From assembly GCF_019320115.1 (NCBI RefSeq), contig NC_089584.1, positions 105,453,111 through 105,517,110 on the forward strand: a stretch of 64,000 nt of DNA, read 5' to 3'. A program made the translations under genes and the position numbers. The notes under the pieces are model-generated. The model searched no databases, was not told the DNA's origin, and saw nothing but the letters and a program-made list of their open reading frames with translations. Positions 4,412-62,717 of the stretch are shown here, piece by piece. Source of the DNA: Miscanthus floridulus. Its lineage: Eukaryota; Streptophyta; Magnoliopsida; Poales; Poaceae. The first letter of the stretch is position 1, and every line of letters starts with the position of its first letter.

Positions 4412-4444
4412 CTGGATGGTGATGCCAATAAACAAGATCGGGTT

Positions 4445-5770
4445 GTGGAGGAGTTCCCAGATGTCTTCCCCGATGACTTGCCAGGTATGCCACCTGATCG
4501 TGACATTGAATTCATTATTGAATTATTACCTAGAACTGCACCAATAGCTAAACGTCCATATAGAATGGGGGTTAATGAATTAGAAGGGCTTAAGAAACAA
4601 CTAAAAGAGTTGCAAGAAAAAGGTTTCATATGCCCCAGTTCTTCCCCATGGGGGGCACCAGTGATCTTTGTGGATAAGAAGGATGGTAGCCAATGGATGT
4701 GTGTGGATTACCGTTCACTTAATGAGGTTACTATCAAGAATAAATACCCTTTGCCAAGGATTGATAATTTGTTTGATCAGTTGAGAAGAGCCTATGTGTT
4801 CTCCAAGATTGATCTCCGCTCAGGTTACAATCAGCTAAAGATTCAAAACTCAGACATACCCAAGACAACATTCACTACACGGTATGGCTTGTATGAGTAT
4901 ACCGTTATGTCTTTTGGATTGACCAATGCACCTGCATACTTTATGTATCTGATGAATAAGGTGTTTATGGAGTTTTTGATAAATTTGTGGTGGTATTTAT
5001 TAATGGCATACTGATATTCTCCAAGACTAAAGAAGAACATGCTGAACATATAAGGTTGGTCTTGCAAAAGATTAGAGAACATAAGTTGTACGCTAAGCGG
5101 AGCAAGTGTGAGTTTTAGTTGAAGGAGGTCTCTTTTCTGGGTCATGTTGTCTCCAATGGTGGAATAGCAGTGGATCTAGGCAAAGTACAAGATATTGAAT
5201 TGGAAACCACCAACCAATGTAAGTGAGATTCATAGCTTTTTGGGATTGGCTGGATACTACAGGAGGTTCATTGAAGGTTTTTCCAAGCTTGTTAAGCCTA
5301 TGACAGCTCTGTTGGAAAAGAATACTAAATTTGTATGGTCTGATAAATGCCAGGCAAACTTTGATGAGCTAAAGAAGAGATTGACTACAGCACCAGTGTT
5401 GATTTTGCCAAATTTAAGCAAGAACTTCTCTATATATTGTGATGCATCTCGTTCGAGCCTTGGATGTGTTCTTATGCAAGGAGGAAGAGTGGTGGCATAT
5501 GCATCTAGACAATTGAGGAATCATGAGTTGAACTACCCTACTCATGACTTGGAATTGGCAGCTGTGGTTCATGCTTTGAAAATCTAGAGACATTATCTAA
5601 TTGGGCATAAGAGTGATATCTATACAGACCACAAGAGTTTGAAGTATATCTTTACCCAATCAGATCTGAATTTAAGACAATGTCGTTGGTTAGAATTGAT
5701 CAAAGACTATGATTTGGAAGTGCATTATCATCCGGGAAAAGCAAATGTCGTAGCTGATGCACTTAGCAGG
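4445..5770 (+). pseudogene. Reverse transcriptase and RNase H of pol, active site lost
   Basis: RT motifs are clear: the [15 protein letters not shown] entry block, then [35 protein letters not shown] and [11 protein letters not shown] frameshift near 4980 moves the reading to another frame. There the usual FIDD catalytic motif is replaced by FING (about 4996-5007), so both metal-binding aspartates are gone. TAG at 5116 and 5585 each stand where Trp is conserved. The RNase H part begins near 5440 ([13 protein letters not shown]) and ends with ADALSRK near 5773. This copy cannot encode an active polymerase. Confidence 0.88.
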
Positions 5771-5779
5771 AAGAGTTAT

Positions 5780-6970
5780 GCCAATGGACTTCGGTTGACA
5801 TTGATGCCAGCAGATTTGTGTGCTGAAATGGAGTATCTCAACTTGAGTTTTGGCACTAATGCAATGGAATTGGTGATAGAGCCTATATTGGAGCAAGAGA
5901 TATGCAAAGGTCAAGTGGGGGATGAAAAACTTAAAGAGATAGCGGAGAATGTAGTGCTTGGAAAGGCACCAGGGTTCAGGATGGATGAGAATGATACTCT
6001 TTGGTTCAGGAAAAGGATATGTATACCTAAAGTGAAGGCTATCCGTGATGCAATTCTGCAAGAGGCACATGAGTCTGCTTATTCTATACATCCCGGAAGT
6101 ACCAAGATGTATTTGATCTCAAAGAGAAGTATTGGTGGTATGGTTTGAAGATAGATGTGGCAGAGTATGTGGCTTTGTGTGACACTTGTCAAAGGGTGAA
6201 AGTTGAGCATCAAAGACCTGTAGGGTTGCTACAACCAATGAAGATTCCTAAATGGAAATGGGAATAAGTTGGTATGAATTTTATGGTAGGTTTGCCCCAT
6301 ACTCAAAGAGGTTATGATTCAATATGGGTAATAGTGGATCGACTCACCAAGGTTGCTCACTTTCTACCAGTCAAGACTACCTATACAGGTGCAAGGCTGG
6401 CAGAGTTGTACATGGAAAGGATAGTGTGCTTACATGGTGTTTCTAAGAAAATTGTGTCTGATAGAGGTACTCAGTTTACGTCGCAATTCTAGCAGAAAGT
6501 GCATAGATCTTTGGGGACAAAGTTGAATTTTAGTTCTGCTTACCACCCACAAACTGATGGACAGACTAAAAGGATCAACCAGATTTTGGAAGATATGTTG
6601 AGAGCTTGTGCACTGCAGTATGGTACTAGTTGGGATAAGAGTTTACCATATGCTGAGTTCTCGTACAACAACAGTTACCAGAAGAGTCTCAAGATGGCAC
6701 CTTTTGAGGCGCTGTATGGACGTAAATGTAGAATGCCTTTGTTCTGGAATCAAACTGGTGAAACTCAAGTGTTTGGACCCGATGCCCTTAGAGACGCAGA
6801 AGAACAAGTGAGAATGATTAGAGACAACTTGAGAGTGGCTCAGTCTTGACAAAAGAGTTACGCTACTACTCGTAGAAGAGAGCTGACTTTCGAAATTGGA
6901 GATTATGTGTACTTAAAGGTGTCACCAATGAGAAGTGTGAAAAGATTCAATATGAAGGAAAAGTTGGCAC
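5780..6970 (+). pseudogene. Integrase domain of pol
   Basis: The zinc-binding part is partly present (HPGSTKMY near 6085; CDTCQRVK near 6180), with a frameshift around 6145 between the two. The catalytic core reads WVIVDRLTKVAHFLP (first Asp near 6337), SDRGTQFTSQF (second Asp near 6458) and the downstream HRSLGTKLNFSSAYHPQTDGQT block. TAA 6265, TAG 6490 (at a Trp position) and TGA 6847 interrupt it. The C-terminal FEALYGRKCRMPLFW block from about 6700 is typical of plant chromoviruses. Confidence 0.86.
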
Positions 6971-14479: not shown

Positions 14480-14772
14480 CTATGGCTAAAAACATGAGTT
14501 ACAAGTGCTAGGCTCTTTGGGCGAGATGTTCGAACGTTGTTACCTCAGTAAAACTGTGGGTATTTTTGAACACAGGTACTTGTACACATTTTATATTTTA
14601 GAAAGGCTAATTGATTCATTCTATGAATAAATAGCAAGTTGGATTGCGGGAAGACATAGATTTTATATTGGAGCAGACAGGCCTATAAGAGCAGAACTGG
14701 CTAGATGTTGAGGTTGATACCTAGCCGATTGGGGAGATTTTTCGTGGCAAATTATTACGAACTGATGGGTAC

Positions 14773-16242
14773 TGTCGGGGACCAATACCAGGGTACCCAA
14801 AGAGGAGGATCTAATAACCATCAATATTGATTCGTCCGAGCAATCAAGAGGGCAACTACAGCTCCAACTGACCCCCAGGTACGCAAACTTCGCCTCGCTC
14901 GACCCCTGAGGGTTGGCTCCACCTCGCCCGACACCGAGGTCATGGGCTCCGCCTCGCCCGACCCCTAAGGTTGGCTTTGCCTCGCCCAACAATGAGGCCA
15001 TCGGATCTGCCTTGCCCGACACCGAGGCCATGGGCTCTACCTCGCCCAACCCCTGAGGGTCGCTCCGTCTTGCCCACCCCCTGAGGGTGGCTCCATCTCG
15101 CTCGACATCAAGACCATGGGCTCCACCTCGTCCAACCCTAAGGGTGGCCCTGCCTTGCCCGACCCATAAGGGTGGCTCCGTCTCACCTAACCTCTGAGGG
15201 TGGCTCCACCTTGCTCGACACCGAGGCCACAGGCTCCCCCTCACCCAACACCGAGGCTGCGGGCTCTGCCTTGCCCAACCTCTAAGGGCTGGCTTGACCT
15301 CGCCCAACACCGAGGCCACGGGCTCCACCTCGCTCGACCTCTAAGGGCGGGCTTCACCTCACCTAAGCCTTGGGTTTGGGCTTTGCCTCGCCTAGCCTCT
15401 GGGGAGGAACTCTACCTCGCCTGACCCCAAGGTCTAGGGCTCCATCTCGCCCGATGGAGACCCATACCGTTGCCAACTACTCTAGATCTAAGCATATGGG
15501 CCTGGGTAAAAGCTCTGACACCAAGGAGGTGACCAACATGCCCTAATATAACCTATGGCCATGACGAACATACCTAAGGATTCACATTAGGAATAGCACC
15601 GGGCGAACCAGTGTTGTTCTGCCTAACCCTTGTACGAACACTGATAGGCGCATCAGTTCGCCATGACTTCCGCAGGACAGAGTGGGGCGCCATGACCGGG
15701 AGACAGCACATGCGCATGGTGCTAGTGATGGACAGGGACGCGATGTGAAGCTATCCCTGTTGATGTCTATAGGGTCAGTGGGACCCATATAGAAGAGACG
15801 AAGGACCCAACGATCCTGGAGGACTTCTTCTCCTTCTGATTCTCCTTTTTCCCTCTGATGTAACCCGTGCTTTTCCTTAGCATATAAAAGAGAAAGAGGG
15901 GTGTCCCATTAAGGGGCATCGGACCAATGATCACAACACATCACACTAATTTGGATTCAAACCCCAAACCGATTAGAACACACAAGCACCTAGCTGAGAA
16001 GCGACCAAGCCCTCGGTGCCCATTCGCTGCTCCCACTAGAGACTTGGGACCTATCCCTCTATTGACCATTTGTAACCCCTACTATGAACTTTTAGTGCTA
16101 GTAACATGAGCAACAGCAACAAACTAGACGTAGGGACATTCTACCCAAACTAGTATAAACCTCGTGTCCTTTTAGCACACCATCTGAGCCAGACGTGTAA
16201 TATTAGAAATTTACTTGTTGGTGGCAACTCTAAACACCGATA
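14773..16242 (+). repeat. 5' LTR of the Tat element, 1470 bp
   Basis: Runs from TGTCGGGGACC to AACACCGATA. It contains a GC-rich minisatellite near its start and a TATA-like ATATAAAAG at about 15881, about 360 bp before the LTR end. It is about 200 bp shorter than the 3' LTR, and the difference lies mostly in the minisatellite. Confidence 0.92.
14885..15460. repeat. LTR minisatellite, ~30-bp units
   Basis: Two unit types alternate: a 'cctcgcccgacccctgaggg' type and a 'cgacaccgaggccatgggct' type, each near 30 bp with many point differences. The array creates long spurious open frames on both strands. Confidence 0.85.
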
Positions 16243-30540: not shown

Positions 30541-30732
30541 CCCGCGGGGGTCAAAAATCAAGAAAGACCTTTTCCAACCCACCAAAATCTCATGGCCATA
30601 CCCGGGAAGGGTCCGACCTCGATGAGAGGGAATCACTGTCCCCGGGACATGCCGTGGGCAACGAAAGAAGACCAAGGCCCTTAGAGTCCTCCCATTCAGA
30701 AAAACTTCTGAAGGAGTATTCTACTCCTCTGC

Positions 30733-30747
30733 AGGCTCGGGGGCTAC
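30733..30747 (+). promoter_or_regulatory. Polypurine tract of the Tat element
   Basis: AGGCTCGGGGGCTAC directly precedes the 3' LTR. This purine-rich segment is the conventional plus-strand priming site in this lineage. Confidence 0.7.
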
Positions 30748-32424
30748 TGTCGGGGACCAATACCAAGGTACTTGAAGAGGAGGAGCTAATAACCATCAAC
30801 ATTGATTCACCCGAGCAGTCAAGAGCATGACTATAGCTCCAATCGACCCTTAGGTATGCAAACTCCACCTCTCCCGACCCCTGAGGGTTGCCTCCACCTC
30901 GGCCAACACCAAGGCCGTGGGCTCCACCTCGCCCGACCCCTGAGGTTAGCTCTACCTCGCCCGACACCGAGGCCACGGGCTCTGCCTTGCTCAACCCCTG
31001 AGGGTGGCTCCTCATCGCCAAACACCGAGGCCATGGGCTCTGCCTCGCCCAACCCCTAAGGGTTGGCTCTGCCTCGCTCGACCCCTAAGCTTGGCTCCAC
31101 CTTGCCTAACACCGAGGCCGTGGGCTCTGCCTCGCCCGACCCCTGAGGATGGCTCCACCTCACCCGACAACGAGGCCATGGGCTCCACCTTGCTTGACCC
31201 CTAAGGGTGGCTCTGCCTTGCCCACCCCCTGAGGGTGGCTCTGCCTCGCCTGACCCCTGAGGGTGGCTCCTCCTCGCCCAACACCAAGGCCATGGGCTCT
31301 GCCTTGCCTGACCCCTGAGGGTGGCTTTGCCTTGCCCAACACTGAGGCCGCAGGCTCTACCTCGCCTGACACCTGAGGGTGGCTCCACCTCACCCAACAC
31401 CGAGGCCTTGAGCTCCACCTCGCCCGACCCCTGAGGGCGAGCTCCACCTTGCTCGACATCGAGGCAGCGGGCTCTGCCTCGCCTGACCCCTGAGGGCAGG
31501 CTCTACCTCACCCAACACTAAGGTCATGGGATCCACCTCACCTGACCTCTAAGGGTTGGCTCTGTCTCGCCTAACCCCTAGGTTTGGGCTCTGCCTCGCC
31601 CGACCCCAAGGTCGGGGGCTTCGTCTCGCCCAATGGAGACCCATACCGCCGCCAACCACTCTAGGTCCAAGCATATGGGCCTGGGTCAAAGCTCTAACAC
31701 CAGGGAGGTGACTGGCACACCCCGATATAACATGTGGTCGTGATGGGCCATACCTGAGGATTCTCATCAGGAACAGCGTCGGGCGAACTGGTGTTGTTCT
31801 GCCTAACCTTCGTATAAACACTAATAGGCACGTCAGTTCACCACGATGTCTGCCAGGATGGAGTGGGGCACCATGACCGGGAGATGATGCCTGCACATGG
31901 CGCCACTGATGGACAGGAGTGTGACGTGAAGCTGTCCCTGTTGATGTCTACAGGGTCGGCGAGACCCGCATAGAAGAGAAGAAGGACCCGGCGGTCCTAG
32001 AGGACTTCTTATCCTTCTGATTCTCCTTTTTTCCCTCCGCTATAACTCGTGCTTTCCCTTAGCCTATAAAAGGGAAAGTAGGGCGTCCCATTAAGGGGCA
32101 TTAGACCAACGATCACAGCACATCACACCGATTCAAACTCGAACCCCAAACCAATTAGAACACACAAGCACCTAGCAGAGAAGCAACTGAGCCCTCGGCG
32201 CCCATTCGCTCCTCCCACCAGAGACTTGGGATATGTTCCTCTCTCGACTGTTTGTAACCCCTACTATGAACTTTCAGTGCTAGTAACATGAGCAGCAGCA
32301 ATGAACTAGACATGGGGACATTCTGCCCGAATCAGTATAAACCTCGCGTCCTCTTAGCACACCATCCGAGCTAGACGCGCAATATTAGAAACTTACTTGT
32401 TGGTGGCAACTCAAAACACCGACA
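30748..32424 (+). repeat. 3' LTR of the Tat element, 1677 bp
   Basis: Same ends as the 5' LTR (TGTCGGGG to CCGACA) but about 207 bp longer, because its minisatellite (about 30865-31640) has more units. It is flanked on the right by GGTAT, the slightly altered target duplication. Confidence 0.92.
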
Positions 32425-33764
32425 GGTATGTCAGAAATAATGAATTTTGTGTGCCTTTGACCTCTTTGACCTAATGTGTGCCTGAACCTCTATGAATGTT
32501 GTTTGTAGTTTTTCATGCGGTTTATTCTTAATAACCTTTATGGAGTATTGAACCGGGAATGATTTGTCTGATGAGTTCAATCTGGTAATTTACTATGTGT
32601 CCCTCCAGAAGTCATGAGTGTGCACTTGCTTTGTGGGTTTCTTAATTAATGATGTTCACAGTATTGTTATCTTATCGTGCGATCCGTTTATTTTTAGTAC
32701 AAAAGTTTAGCTGGCCCATAGCAACATAAGGTCACGCTACCTAGTTTTACAAAAGAGCTAAACTATAAAATTTGGTTATTTAGTTTAGCACGAATGTTGG
32801 AGTTGCTCTTACCATTCAAAATGGGGTCAGTAGATGATTAGATGAACATGCTATCCACTCGCTATGCCCCACAAGCCCACACCACCATCACCACCCTCCA
32901 CCATAGATATTCTTACTATGTCTTGAAAAGCACCTCAGCTGGTGGTGGTCTGTGTGACCTTCAGCTGAGCCGTGAGAATGGTTTGATTGCTCCGCGGACC
33001 AGTAGGGTGTATTGGTGTAATGGTGTACTAGTTCATCACGCGCGCCATCGCGCGCGCCGGCAAGGTATGAAAGGAGATACCTACATTCTAAAGACCACAT
33101 GGGTCTTGCAAAGAAATGTTAAATATGCCAGTGCCTAATACTGGTGGGAAAAACACAGCACTTCATAAATTTCCTGCAGCGATATTAATTCTTGTAGAAA
33201 TTTTACTCACACATAAGCATGTCATAGGAACTTTAATGATTTGAGCATATATATATATATATATATATATATTAGTGTTAGCCACACTGTGAGCTGATAA
33301 TAGATAAAAAAATGAAGCTCCACAGCTTGATAACCTGATGGTAATTGACTCAGCGAGCAAATTGGAAGGCAAAGTTATGATATTCACAAAATATATCACG
33401 GCATTGCACCAAAATGGCAATCAACATGATGAGCATTAATTGTGACCAATTTTACATTCCTTACAACAATAGAAGCTAAGCAAACAAAACAGGTACCAAC
33501 ACCAACAAAATCAAAATGCATAACACCATTAACAAGGCAATCACTTCACACCTCTCAAAGCAAGTTGCCATACTACACAGTTTGCCACCTTTAGTGAAGG
33601 TTCTAGTTAGGCATGCTTCTTAGTTCTTACTGAGTACTGAGTAACAATAAAAGTGAGCGCTATGTTGCAACGTGATATGTTTGCAGTGATAATTGGCACA
33701 ACAAAAGCAGAAAGAATAGCTACTCAATATTACTAAAAACTGACGTTTAGATGCAATGACAGAC
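32425..33764. other. Intergenic DNA right of the Tat element
   Basis: No coding region supported. A (TA)13 microsatellite lies at 33247-33272. The sequence at 32840-33140 is open in one frame but shows no family resemblance. Confidence 0.5.
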
Positions 33765-51502: not shown

Positions 51503-52297
51503 TCAGTAGGGGCACTGGCCTTTGGCGGCGGGGGCGTAGAAGAGGACGCTGGTGGGGGTGTAGACGCCCTGCAGCCCCGCCGGCGGGATCGTCCTGGTCT
51601 CCCTCACCAGGGAGAGCCCGATCCACTGGTTGGGCGGGTAGTAGGGCTTGCTGCACTGCGGCGTCGGCGACGAGAGCAGGTACATCTTGCACGTCCTGCC
51701 GTTGAAGTTCTTCATGTCGTAGAACATGATGAGGAAGTAGCCGTTGGCGTCCGTCACCGTCCCCGTCGCATTCACCACCTTCCGCCCGTAGCACACCATC
51801 ATCGCCGTCGCCCCTGCATGCATGCAATGCATGCGCAACGATGTCAATGCGTGCATATTATATGCTCGGAGATCAACAGCTAGCGTTTGTCGCTCACACG
51901 TAGCTATGCATAATAATGCGTGCGTACCTTGCAGAGGCGACGCATCGATGCCGGTGTTGTAGCCCTTCCCCTTGCAGCTCTTGCAGTAGATGGTGCCCTC
52001 TACGATGACGAAGGGAAGCGGCGGCGGCGGCGGAACGAGGGGCAACAACGGCGGCGTAGCGTTGCTGTAGGCTGAAGGCGGCACGGCATTGTCGCCGGGC
52101 GACGACTGCGGCGGTGACGCACCATTGTTCACGGGCGGCGATGGCGACGGCGGCATGGCGCTGTCGTAGGCTGATGTCGGCGCCCTGGCCTTGTCGTCGG
52201 CGGCGACCTTCGCGTGGCGGGCGGGGTACAGCAGCGCCGCAGCGGCGAGCGTCGCTACGGCCAGAAAGGCCCGGCTACTCAGTGAAGCGGAGGCCAT
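51503..52297 (-). CDS. Ole e 1-like secreted protein with proline-rich spacer, intact
   Basis: Exons 52297-51928 and 51813-51503 join in phase 1 (370 + 311 nt) to give 226 codons plus TGA/TAG-type stop at 51503-51505. The intron 51927-51814 is GT...AG and in the same position as in the paralogues. A signal peptide (about residues 1-25) is followed by a low-complexity Ala/Pro/Ser-rich stretch of about 70 residues ending [14 protein letters not shown], then the domain: [46 protein letters not shown] and the end AAKGQCPY. Six cysteines occupy the family positions. The proline-rich spacer suggests a cell-wall association, as in extensin-like Ole e 1 proteins. The domain is more diverged than that of the other two. 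Confidence 0.9.
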
Positions 52298-52430
52298 CTG
52301 GGTTCTTGGCTTGGCACGCTCTTAATTTGACTAACAATTACTACTCCGTAGCTCTTAACTGAAGAGCTGGAGTGGGAATATTGAAGTGGGTGACTTGCGT
52401 GCTCTTGGACTCAGTCTCGGACACGAGGTA

Positions 52431-59699: not shown

Positions 59700-60175
59700 A
59701 AACTGCCCAACCCGCCCCTACCTCAACCTTTGGATGTGTGTTTTTTTCTCCTCGTGTTAATTTTCCTGTGGAAGAATTTTTAATGGACATCTCCTAGTTT
59801 GATACTTGAGATGGGAGGGCGACCGAACTAATCGGCGAACGCTCACTAACAATGAATTGAGCGAACGACATTCGAACATCTACAATTTCTTCTTTTAGAA
59901 AAAAAAATAATTCCCATGTCTTACCATATTTGATACTGCTATGCGCTCCGATTTAATCTTTTGGTGAGTGCACGACGGACACCCCTACGCCCATACCTTT
60001 GACAACACCCTGACACAATCTAAAAAATCATAATATTTATTTTAAAATACTATAACTGCTAAATGGTGTACCATTTTTTAATTCTGTTTGCACCGATGTG
60101 TTATATGCGACGAGACGAACAAAATTAGACCCCCACTTACATATGTTTCGAAGAATTTTATTCTAGTAGCAATTT
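59700..60175. other. Intergenic DNA, no gene seen
   Basis: No coding or RNA feature recognised between the LINE fragment and the AT-rich repeat tract. Confidence 0.4.
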
Positions 60176-60179
60176 ATAT

Positions 60180-60715
60180 GTATCAACTTATAACATATAA
60201 CTTATAACATATAACATTAGCGTATAACTTATAACATTAACTTAGAAACACAAAATTTATGAAACATAACCTATATGTACCAAAGTTATTAAACACAAAA
60301 GAGCGAATTACCTTATAACTTATGCCAAAACTTAGAAACACAAAAGTTATTTAACACAAAGTAACAAATTAACTTATAACTTATAACAAAACTCAAAAAT
60401 ACAAAAAGTTATAAAAACACAACTTATCTAAAAAAAGTTATCAAACACAACTTGTGTACATAAGTTATTTTATTCAACTTGTGTACATAAGTTATGCTAT
60501 ACAACTTGCCAACATTGACAAAAAAAATTAAAAGAAAAATATTTAAAAGAAGGATAGAAAACATAAAAATTGAAAAGAATACAAAACTATAACTTATACC
60601 AAAACTTGGAAGCACAACTTATGTAAAAAAGTAATCAAACAAAACTTGTGTACATAAGTTACTTTATACAACTTGTGTATATAAGTTATTCTATATAACT
60701 TGCCAACGCTTGAAA
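60180..60715. repeat. AT-rich tract with tandem-like ACAACTTGTGTACATAAGTTA motifs
   Basis: The core 'acttgtgtacataagtta' appears near 60448, 60477, 60648 and 60673, alternating with 'aacttataac' runs (60185-60240). On the minus strand the motif reads as repeated ITYVHKL, as does the tract near 40700, which links the two loci. Confidence 0.7.
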
Positions 60716-61670
60716 AAAATAATTAAAAGAAGGATAAAAATGAAAAATGAAAAGAATACTAAAAAAATCACATAAAACAAAACTAAATAAAAATAAAAAG
60801 ATAAGAAAAAAAAGAAAAGGCTAAGTCTATAAAGGTTGTACACGTGAAAGTAAAAGTAAAAAAAAATGAATAAGACACATCCGTACATGTCGCATAAAAA
60901 ATTTGTTTGAGCGTAGCCCCACCGCGTCCGTTAAACACAGCGTTGCCTGTGATTCACCGTGATGCACCGGAAAAGGAAAGAAAAATAGGACAAGGAAAAG
61001 AAAACGAACCAATCCAGGCAGGTACGGTCATTCACCACACTAGAATCGCGTGAGCGACCGTGGGATTGGAATTAGTGTGGGAGAGGCCCTGTTTGGCTCT
61101 CTTGCTCTCTCAAGGACAGCAAGGCCCAGCACTCGTGTTTTGAACGGTCTTGTGATAAGCAAGAGAGTGGTTGCTTGTTTCTCTACGTGGTTCCGTTTCG
61201 GGCTGTGCACTCCCTATTCCCTAAGTTTATATTTGATTGACAGAAGAATTATTTAGTTGTGATTAATTTATTTGGGTGGAACAAAACTCTATGTTAGGGA
61301 AAAACATTGCTCACATAGAACATTAAAATTTATGCACATGGAACAAAATCATGAAATTCGTTGAACAAAAACATATACAACTAGAAAAAAAATTGTATGC
61401 TTAGAAGAAAGTGACAACTATTGAACGAACTCGGGGAACATAAGCTTGTTGTACACCTGCGTGCTGTGCCAAGTTCCTCTAGCTAGATAGGCTGAATTTT
61501 GCTCAACCTGGGCCCAAGTAAAAAAGAAAGAAAGAAAGAAAGAAAGAAAGCTAGCTATCCTAATAATTGGACATGGTCCACTTTCATGATAGCTCTGTAC
61601 AATGCGGCTGGACCGTATAATTCAAGATTTTTCAAAAAAAAAATTGAGCAGAGTATAATTCCAGAATTTT
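60716..61670. other. Intergenic DNA with a GAAA microsatellite
   Basis: A-rich continuation to 60880, then mixed sequence. (GAAA)n occupies 61523-61550. No gene seen. Confidence 0.45.
61523..61550. repeat. (GAAA)n microsatellite
   Basis: About seven GAAA units in a row inside AT-rich intergenic DNA. Confidence 0.95.
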
Positions 61671-61677
61671 CAGACAG

Positions 61678-61795
61678 GCCCAATCTTCTACCAACACTGT
61701 TGGGCTTGGCCCAGTTGTGGAGTCCTTGCCAGCAACAAAATCTTGCTCATCGACTCATGATCAGACGGTTGCCGTTTCACACATCCTTAGGGTTT
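61678..61795 (+). promoter_or_regulatory. Site II and telo-box promoter motifs upstream of the snoRNA
   Basis: GGCCCA at 61678-61683 and 61708-61713, TGGGCT at 61701-61706 (site II, TGGGCY on either strand), and TTAGGGTTT at 61787-61795 (complement of the telo-box AAACCCTAA). This pairing is well known in plant promoters for ribosomal proteins and snoRNAs, and it stands about 200 bp upstream of a C/D snoRNA. Confidence 0.65.
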
Positions 61796-61997
61796 CCTCT
61801 CCGCCCATAGCACAGCCGCCGTTAAAAGGCCAGGAGGGGCTGCCTGTGCCGGCTGAGGCGTTGCGCGGCGGACTGGTTGTGAATTGTGATACCCCAAATT
61901 CGTTTACGCTATGTTTATGTTTCTTCTTTCGTTTGATTTTGTTTTCTCGTTTCTCGTTGCTATTCGTCTTCTTCCTTGCTTCTCGTTGCTTAATCTT

Positions 61998-62080
61998 GGG
62001 AGCAGTGATGAGATCATTTTAGTATGATCTTTGAGATGTGATTATCGATCTCTATATTGCTACGTTCTTGCTGAGCTCCT
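61998..62080 (+). ncRNA. C/D box snoRNA predicted to guide 2'-O-methylation of 5.8S rRNA A47
   Basis: C box GTGATGA (62005-62011) and D box CTGA (62071-62074) are enclosed by a terminal stem GGAGC (61999-62003) with GCTCC (62075-62079). The guide just before the D box, GCTACGTTCTT (62059-62069), is the exact complement of AAGAACGTAGC in plant 5.8S rRNA and extends by one G-U and one A-U pair. The fifth base upstream of the D box pairs with A47 in Arabidopsis numbering, a known 2'-O-methyl position (Am47). An internal C'-like TTGAGATG (62041) is weak. It acts in the nucleolus with fibrillarin, NOP56/58 and the 15.5K protein. This would be the snoR9-type RNA if my memory of the Arabidopsis name is right. 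Transcribed from its own or a host promoter upstream. Confidence 0.8.
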
Positions 62081-62717
62081 AGCACCATGCGCACATATTT
62101 TTAGTTCTATATTCTATTTGGATTCAGGGTTCAATCTGGTTTTAGCGTGATAACTCTTGGATTCAGAAACGCAGAAATTTATCTTCCTGCGATATTCTTG
62201 GCGCTGTTTCCCCCATTCCTGGTTGTAGCGTTTTCTTTTGGCCACTAACAAGGATATATTTGAATCGAAGAAAGACTCAAGTGCTAAAGGTAATTTCTCC
62301 CGTCTGAATAAAAACATTAACACCAAGCTGAGACTTGTTTGATCAACTAGGACAACAACCACTCAACCATAGCATACAAGAGTACAGAGGCATCGATCGC
62401 AGAATTGACGTGACTTTGAATCTCAAAACAGTACTAAGAAACAGAGCATAATCTTCGATCCATCCTCGAGCTTCCAGCCAGCGTTAGTTGAAACCTGCAC
62501 TTGTTTGCAGAAAGCTTCAGGTTAGGTACTGCTACTGAAAATAGTTGGTCTGAAACGAAGTTGAGAAGGCCGCCGCATAAGGATTGGATTGTACCCACCC
62601 AGCTTGAGTTCCAGGCCGCTGCTTGGTGGGGTCGACCCTCCTTCCCCGTTGTTGTTCGAGGCCTGAGAATGAGCAAGCTGCAGGCAAAAAAATACAAGAA
62701 ATTCGGCACAGATTAGA
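62081..62717. other. Sequence downstream of the snoRNA, no second RNA found
   Basis: I looked for further C/D boxes, because plant snoRNAs cluster, and saw no convincing pair. A minus-strand segment 62495-62677 has usable splice borders (TTTGCCTGCAG acceptor, GTGCAG|GTTTCA donor) and is open in one frame, but shows no family resemblance. Confidence 0.4.

Follow-up and report, generated by a model that had tools for sequence, protein, structure and literature searches.

A stretch of 64,000 nucleotides from Miscanthus floridulus (NC_089584.1, forward-strand positions 105,453,111 to 105,517,110; the window hereafter) carries, at 61996-62082 on the plus strand, what is very probably a plant box C/D small nucleolar RNA (snoRNA) gene directing 2'-O-methylation of A47 in 5.8S ribosomal RNA (rRNA). 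Judged from its sequence, this RNA is most likely the guide for methylated A47 (Am47) in the plant, or one of several such guides. The boxes, the closing stem, the match and register of the guide against a plant 5.8S rRNA, and the upstream promoter motifs are directly seen.

Motif, fold and guide scans of the window delimit a C/D guide RNA layout spanning 61996-62082 (+). An initial annotation had placed such an RNA at 61998-62080; its coordinates, boxes, spacing and closing stem hold, and the full stem gives the slightly longer span used here. Both boxes that define the class are present: box C (GTGATGA, 62005-62011, +) fits the consensus RUGAUGA as printed in PMC5122169, and box D (CTGA) lies at 62071-62074 (+). 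The ends meet in the terminal stem typical of a box C/D snoRNA, identified by fold and by stem count, in which TTGGGAGC (61996-62003, +) pairs with GCTCCTAG (62075-62082, +) through 8 pairs, including 2 G-U. The fold also predicts an internal hairpin (62010-62031, +) of 8 pairs between 62010-62017 and 62024-62031, covering the region where a D' guide would sit. Because this hairpin includes the last 2 bases of box C, no more than 6 of the 8 pairs (62012-62017 with 62024-62029) are compatible with the box. A possible box C' (GTGATTA, 62038-62044, +) is suggested by motif resemblance only, and box D' is indistinct, with only loose matches at 62024 (ATGA) and 62031 (TTGA). Since the D' stretch falls within the predicted hairpin and no clear box D' is seen, a single-guide form of the RNA appears likelier.

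The D-adjacent guide (62057-62069, +) forms a duplex with 5.8S rRNA positions 44-56. The 5.8S rRNA used for this comparison was that of tea, printed in PMC4929424, and the numbering is that of the tea molecule. Starting beside a single unpaired base, G62070, that separates the guide from box D, the duplex comprises 11 Watson–Crick pairs (62059-62069) followed by a G-U and an A-U pair, 13 pairs in total. T62066, the fifth base upstream of box D (the D+5 position), lies opposite A47. Thus, against tea 5.8S rRNA, the candidate has the guide expected of a box C/D snoRNA, namely at least about 9 pairs beside box D or D' with the target at D+5. The perfect 11-bp guide, 13 with G-U, and the target base A47 claimed in the initial annotation are both recovered. 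The 5.8S stretch that the guide requires, AAGAACGUAGC, is in print in tea 5.8S, in a ribosomal DNA probe used on lily and in the conserved motif M1 of banana.

Could such an arrangement assemble by chance from C/D-like motifs and a 5.8S complement? Strict C...D pairs, scored on both strands with box starts 57-147 bases apart, are common by themselves. The window holds 9 (3 on the plus and 6 on the minus strand), and 400 dinucleotide-preserving shuffles of the window produced 3165, or about 7.9 per shuffled window. What sets the candidate apart is the pairing. Its 5.8S run of 11 is the longest among the 9 pairs, the next being 6, while among the 3165 shuffled pairs runs of at least 7, 8 and 9 occurred in 102, 28 and 3 cases, respectively, and runs of at least 10 in none. 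A closing stem of at least 5 pairs was found in 157 shuffled pairs and one of at least 8, as in the candidate, in 6; no shuffled pair combined a stem of at least 5 with a run of at least 8. The earlier judgement that a coincidence is improbable is therefore supported by these 3165 pairs, and the register, moreover, lands on a base known to be methylated. The string GCTACGTTCTTNCTGA matches the window three times at up to 3 mismatches, once exactly (the candidate) and twice with 3 mismatches; as 21 of 100 shuffles also gave at least 3 such matches, only the exact one counts. In prokaryote contigs, the same guide and box D occur at suitable spacing behind TGATGA three times, all in bacteria. These matches are about what chance would give, since our own estimate of the expectation is 3.6 (257 Gb x 2 strands x 31 spacings / 4^21), and the prokaryote collection was set aside as a source of plant relatives. 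Overall, we consider a chance assembly to be of almost negligible probability.

The methylation itself is documented in plants, as the initial annotation had stated for Arabidopsis. A47 is one of two Arabidopsis 5.8S sites found by RiboMeth-seq, where it is assigned to SnoR9 (PMC8053127), and Am47 of Arabidopsis 5.8S rRNA is also named in PMC8351944. A table in PMC11542601 gives Am47 for Arabidopsis, Am48 for tomato, Am46 for tobacco and Am42 for the alga Ostreococcus, the Ostreococcus sites being predictions from snoRNAs. In Neurospora, Am42 of 5.8S rRNA was mapped by primer extension, with CD29 as its guide and A. thaliana snoR9 as the listed homolog (PMC2780460).

An RNA that pairs with 5.8S rRNA might instead serve mainly in folding or processing of the precursor rRNA, or its main target might be another RNA reached through D'. 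This explanation overlaps with the methylation of A47 rather than excluding it. A processing role has been discussed for snoR4, another 5.8S-directed plant snoRNA (PMC8351944), and a possible box C' is present. In addition, 62022-62029, immediately ahead of the weak TTGA (62031), forms 8 Watson–Crick pairs with positions 8-15 of tea 5S rRNA. Conversely, the D' stretch sits in the predicted hairpin, and a register that falls on a mapped 2'-O-methylated nucleotide makes methylation the simpler reading. The 8-base match to 5S rRNA may well be due to chance, and we take it as such because the 5S rRNA of Arabidopsis showed no methylation (PMC8053127). The search of D' against tea 5.8S, U6, part of U4 and part of 5S gave other runs 8-10 long, most with several G-U pairs. 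A main role in processing, or through D', is accordingly rated as highly improbable.

Upstream of the candidate, at a distance of about 200-320 bases, lie three site II motifs (TGGGCY or its complement; at 61677, 61701 and 61708, spanning 61677-61713) and a telo box at 61787-61795 on the minus strand (TTAGGGTTT, complement AAACCCTAA). The motif definitions were taken from PMC3022908, where this pattern is published for plant snoRNA gene promoters; in rice, the association is reported there at 14 of 35 non-intronic orphan loci and 21 of 41 independent clustered loci. The motifs fit a gene transcribed by RNA polymerase II and are not decisive. We propose that transcription would start from this site II/telo-box promoter, and that trimming of the precursor would leave an RNA of some 83-87 nucleotides closed by the terminal stem. 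The fibrillarin core proteins would then bind a kink-turn formed by boxes C and D. With the D-adjacent guide paired to 5.8S rRNA 44-56, fibrillarin would be expected to 2'-O-methylate A47 by the D+5 rule.

Several observations weigh against the assignment of the candidate as an A47 guide. The fold energy is ordinary (z -0.93), and 33 of 200 shuffles fold equally well or better; by itself, this energy is uninformative. Telo boxes are common in the window: the motif matches 19 times, at 14 distinct places, 7 of which have one or more site II motifs within 200 bases. Three site II motifs accompany the telo box at two of the 14 places, 15134 and that of the candidate. Across the whole window, every Rfam family stays below its gathering score. 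That A47 of tea corresponds to A47 of Arabidopsis is assumed from their equal numbering. Finally, some banana copies of the internal transcribed spacer are described as carrying T at M1 positions 11 and 16, inside the target.

The relation to Rfam family RF00356 (snoR32/R81) illustrates how the candidate stands among known guides. In a covariance-type search, proposed as a check in the initial annotation, RF00356, which has the same guide, was matched at 30 bits, under its gathering score of 45. At lax Rfam settings over 801 bases, 13 of the 16 matches listed are to C/D snoRNA families on the stretch and strand of the candidate. Of these 13, all under gathering, 12 end at 62075-62082 and one extends to 62116. 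The consensus of RF00356, GCUACGUUCUU-U-CUGA, has the identical 11-base guide and the one-base spacer to box D, with box C near the 5' end. In contrast, the inner part of the candidate is shorter (47 versus 60 bases), and 4105 of 5000 shuffles of it align to the RF00356 consensus as well or better, a weak test since it involves one consensus only. The match is thus confined to the boxes and the guide. A function in common with RF00356 is likely from the shared guide, and the sequence does not establish membership in the family. One may also envisage a lineage-specific A47 guide that does not descend from RF00356, unrelated snoRNAs having come to serve the same methylation in different plants through guide replacement or convergent origin; we regard this as unlikely. 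A real-looking plant snoRNA may escape the Rfam gathering thresholds if little beyond its boxes and guide fits the model.

The naming of these RNAs is in conflict between sources. The D guide of RF00356 (snoR32/R81) fits 5.8S A47, while the Arabidopsis table of PMC8053127 names SnoR9 for A47 and SnoR32 for 18S U1266 and A1330.

The candidate resembles Arabidopsis SnoR9 in its target base, its box C/D class and the assignment by the D+5 rule (PMC8053127). This shared target concerns function and not kinship. The sources also disagree on SnoR9, which PMC5122169 places among the orphans without a target. Neurospora CD29 is similar in guiding a 5.8S site whose listed homolog is A. thaliana snoR9; it differs in being a fungal RNA that has its 5.8S guide at D' and a U2 guide at D (PMC2780460). 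Four forms of the guide plus box D string were found in none of the papers of the library searched; the RNA may nevertheless have been published. A paper on maize, PMC6172812, does not mention 5.8S, snoR9 or snoR32 in its main text, and snoR9, snoR32 and R81 are absent from PMC7464842.

SnoR9, the A47 guide of Arabidopsis, is marked as having several gene variants (PMC8053127), which would be in line with the functional RNA coming from a different locus and this one being a silent pseudogene copy. In a copy that had died, some of the parts should have decayed, whereas here the boxes, stem and guide are intact and the promoter motifs are in place. Nor does the window contain a second copy, the sole other match being 22 bases long at 82% identity (E 0.64). 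A silent copy is therefore considered very unlikely. As a working A47 guide, the candidate would add one probable gene to the annotation, and it makes a precise prediction, Am47 in the 5.8S rRNA of this species. It would be an ordinary new member of a known RNA class and changes no concept.

Other candidates in the same DNA were tried and rejected. The sole other strict pair with a stem of at least 5 lies on the minus strand (box C at 33039, box D at 32938); its best 5.8S run is 5, and it was not retained as a second snoRNA. No Rfam match at gathering level and no tRNA pointed to a second small RNA in the window, where the search for H/ACA RNAs and for C/D RNAs whose boxes are degenerate relied on Rfam. 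A hairpin derived from a mobile element is unsupported, as 61600-62500 has no reported inverted repeats and the window no second copy, although no transposon library was searched. The repeats reported in 61600-62500 are limited to two short direct ones, each in two copies. In viral contigs, likewise tried as a source of plant relatives, patterns for a 30-base 5.8S stretch, for an 18S and a 25S rRNA stretch and for the C...guide...D layout gave no match, and an 18-base 5.8S pattern matched two loci, neither with a gathering-level Rfam match.

Elsewhere in the window, an open frame of 272 residues at 51503-52321 (-) encodes a Pollen Ole e 1-like domain (Pfam PF01190, E 7.6e-12). Remains of a retrotransposon lie at 4412-6148 (+), where one open frame has a reverse transcriptase domain (PF00078) and another an RNase H-like domain (PF17917). 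The similar, repetitive translations of three minus-strand open frames, at 14663-15340, 30590-31084 and 31056-31502, point to a repeat family in the G+C-richer part of the window. In the A+T-rich region 60150-60720, the phrases ACTTATAAC and ACATAAGTTAT recur in many variant forms.
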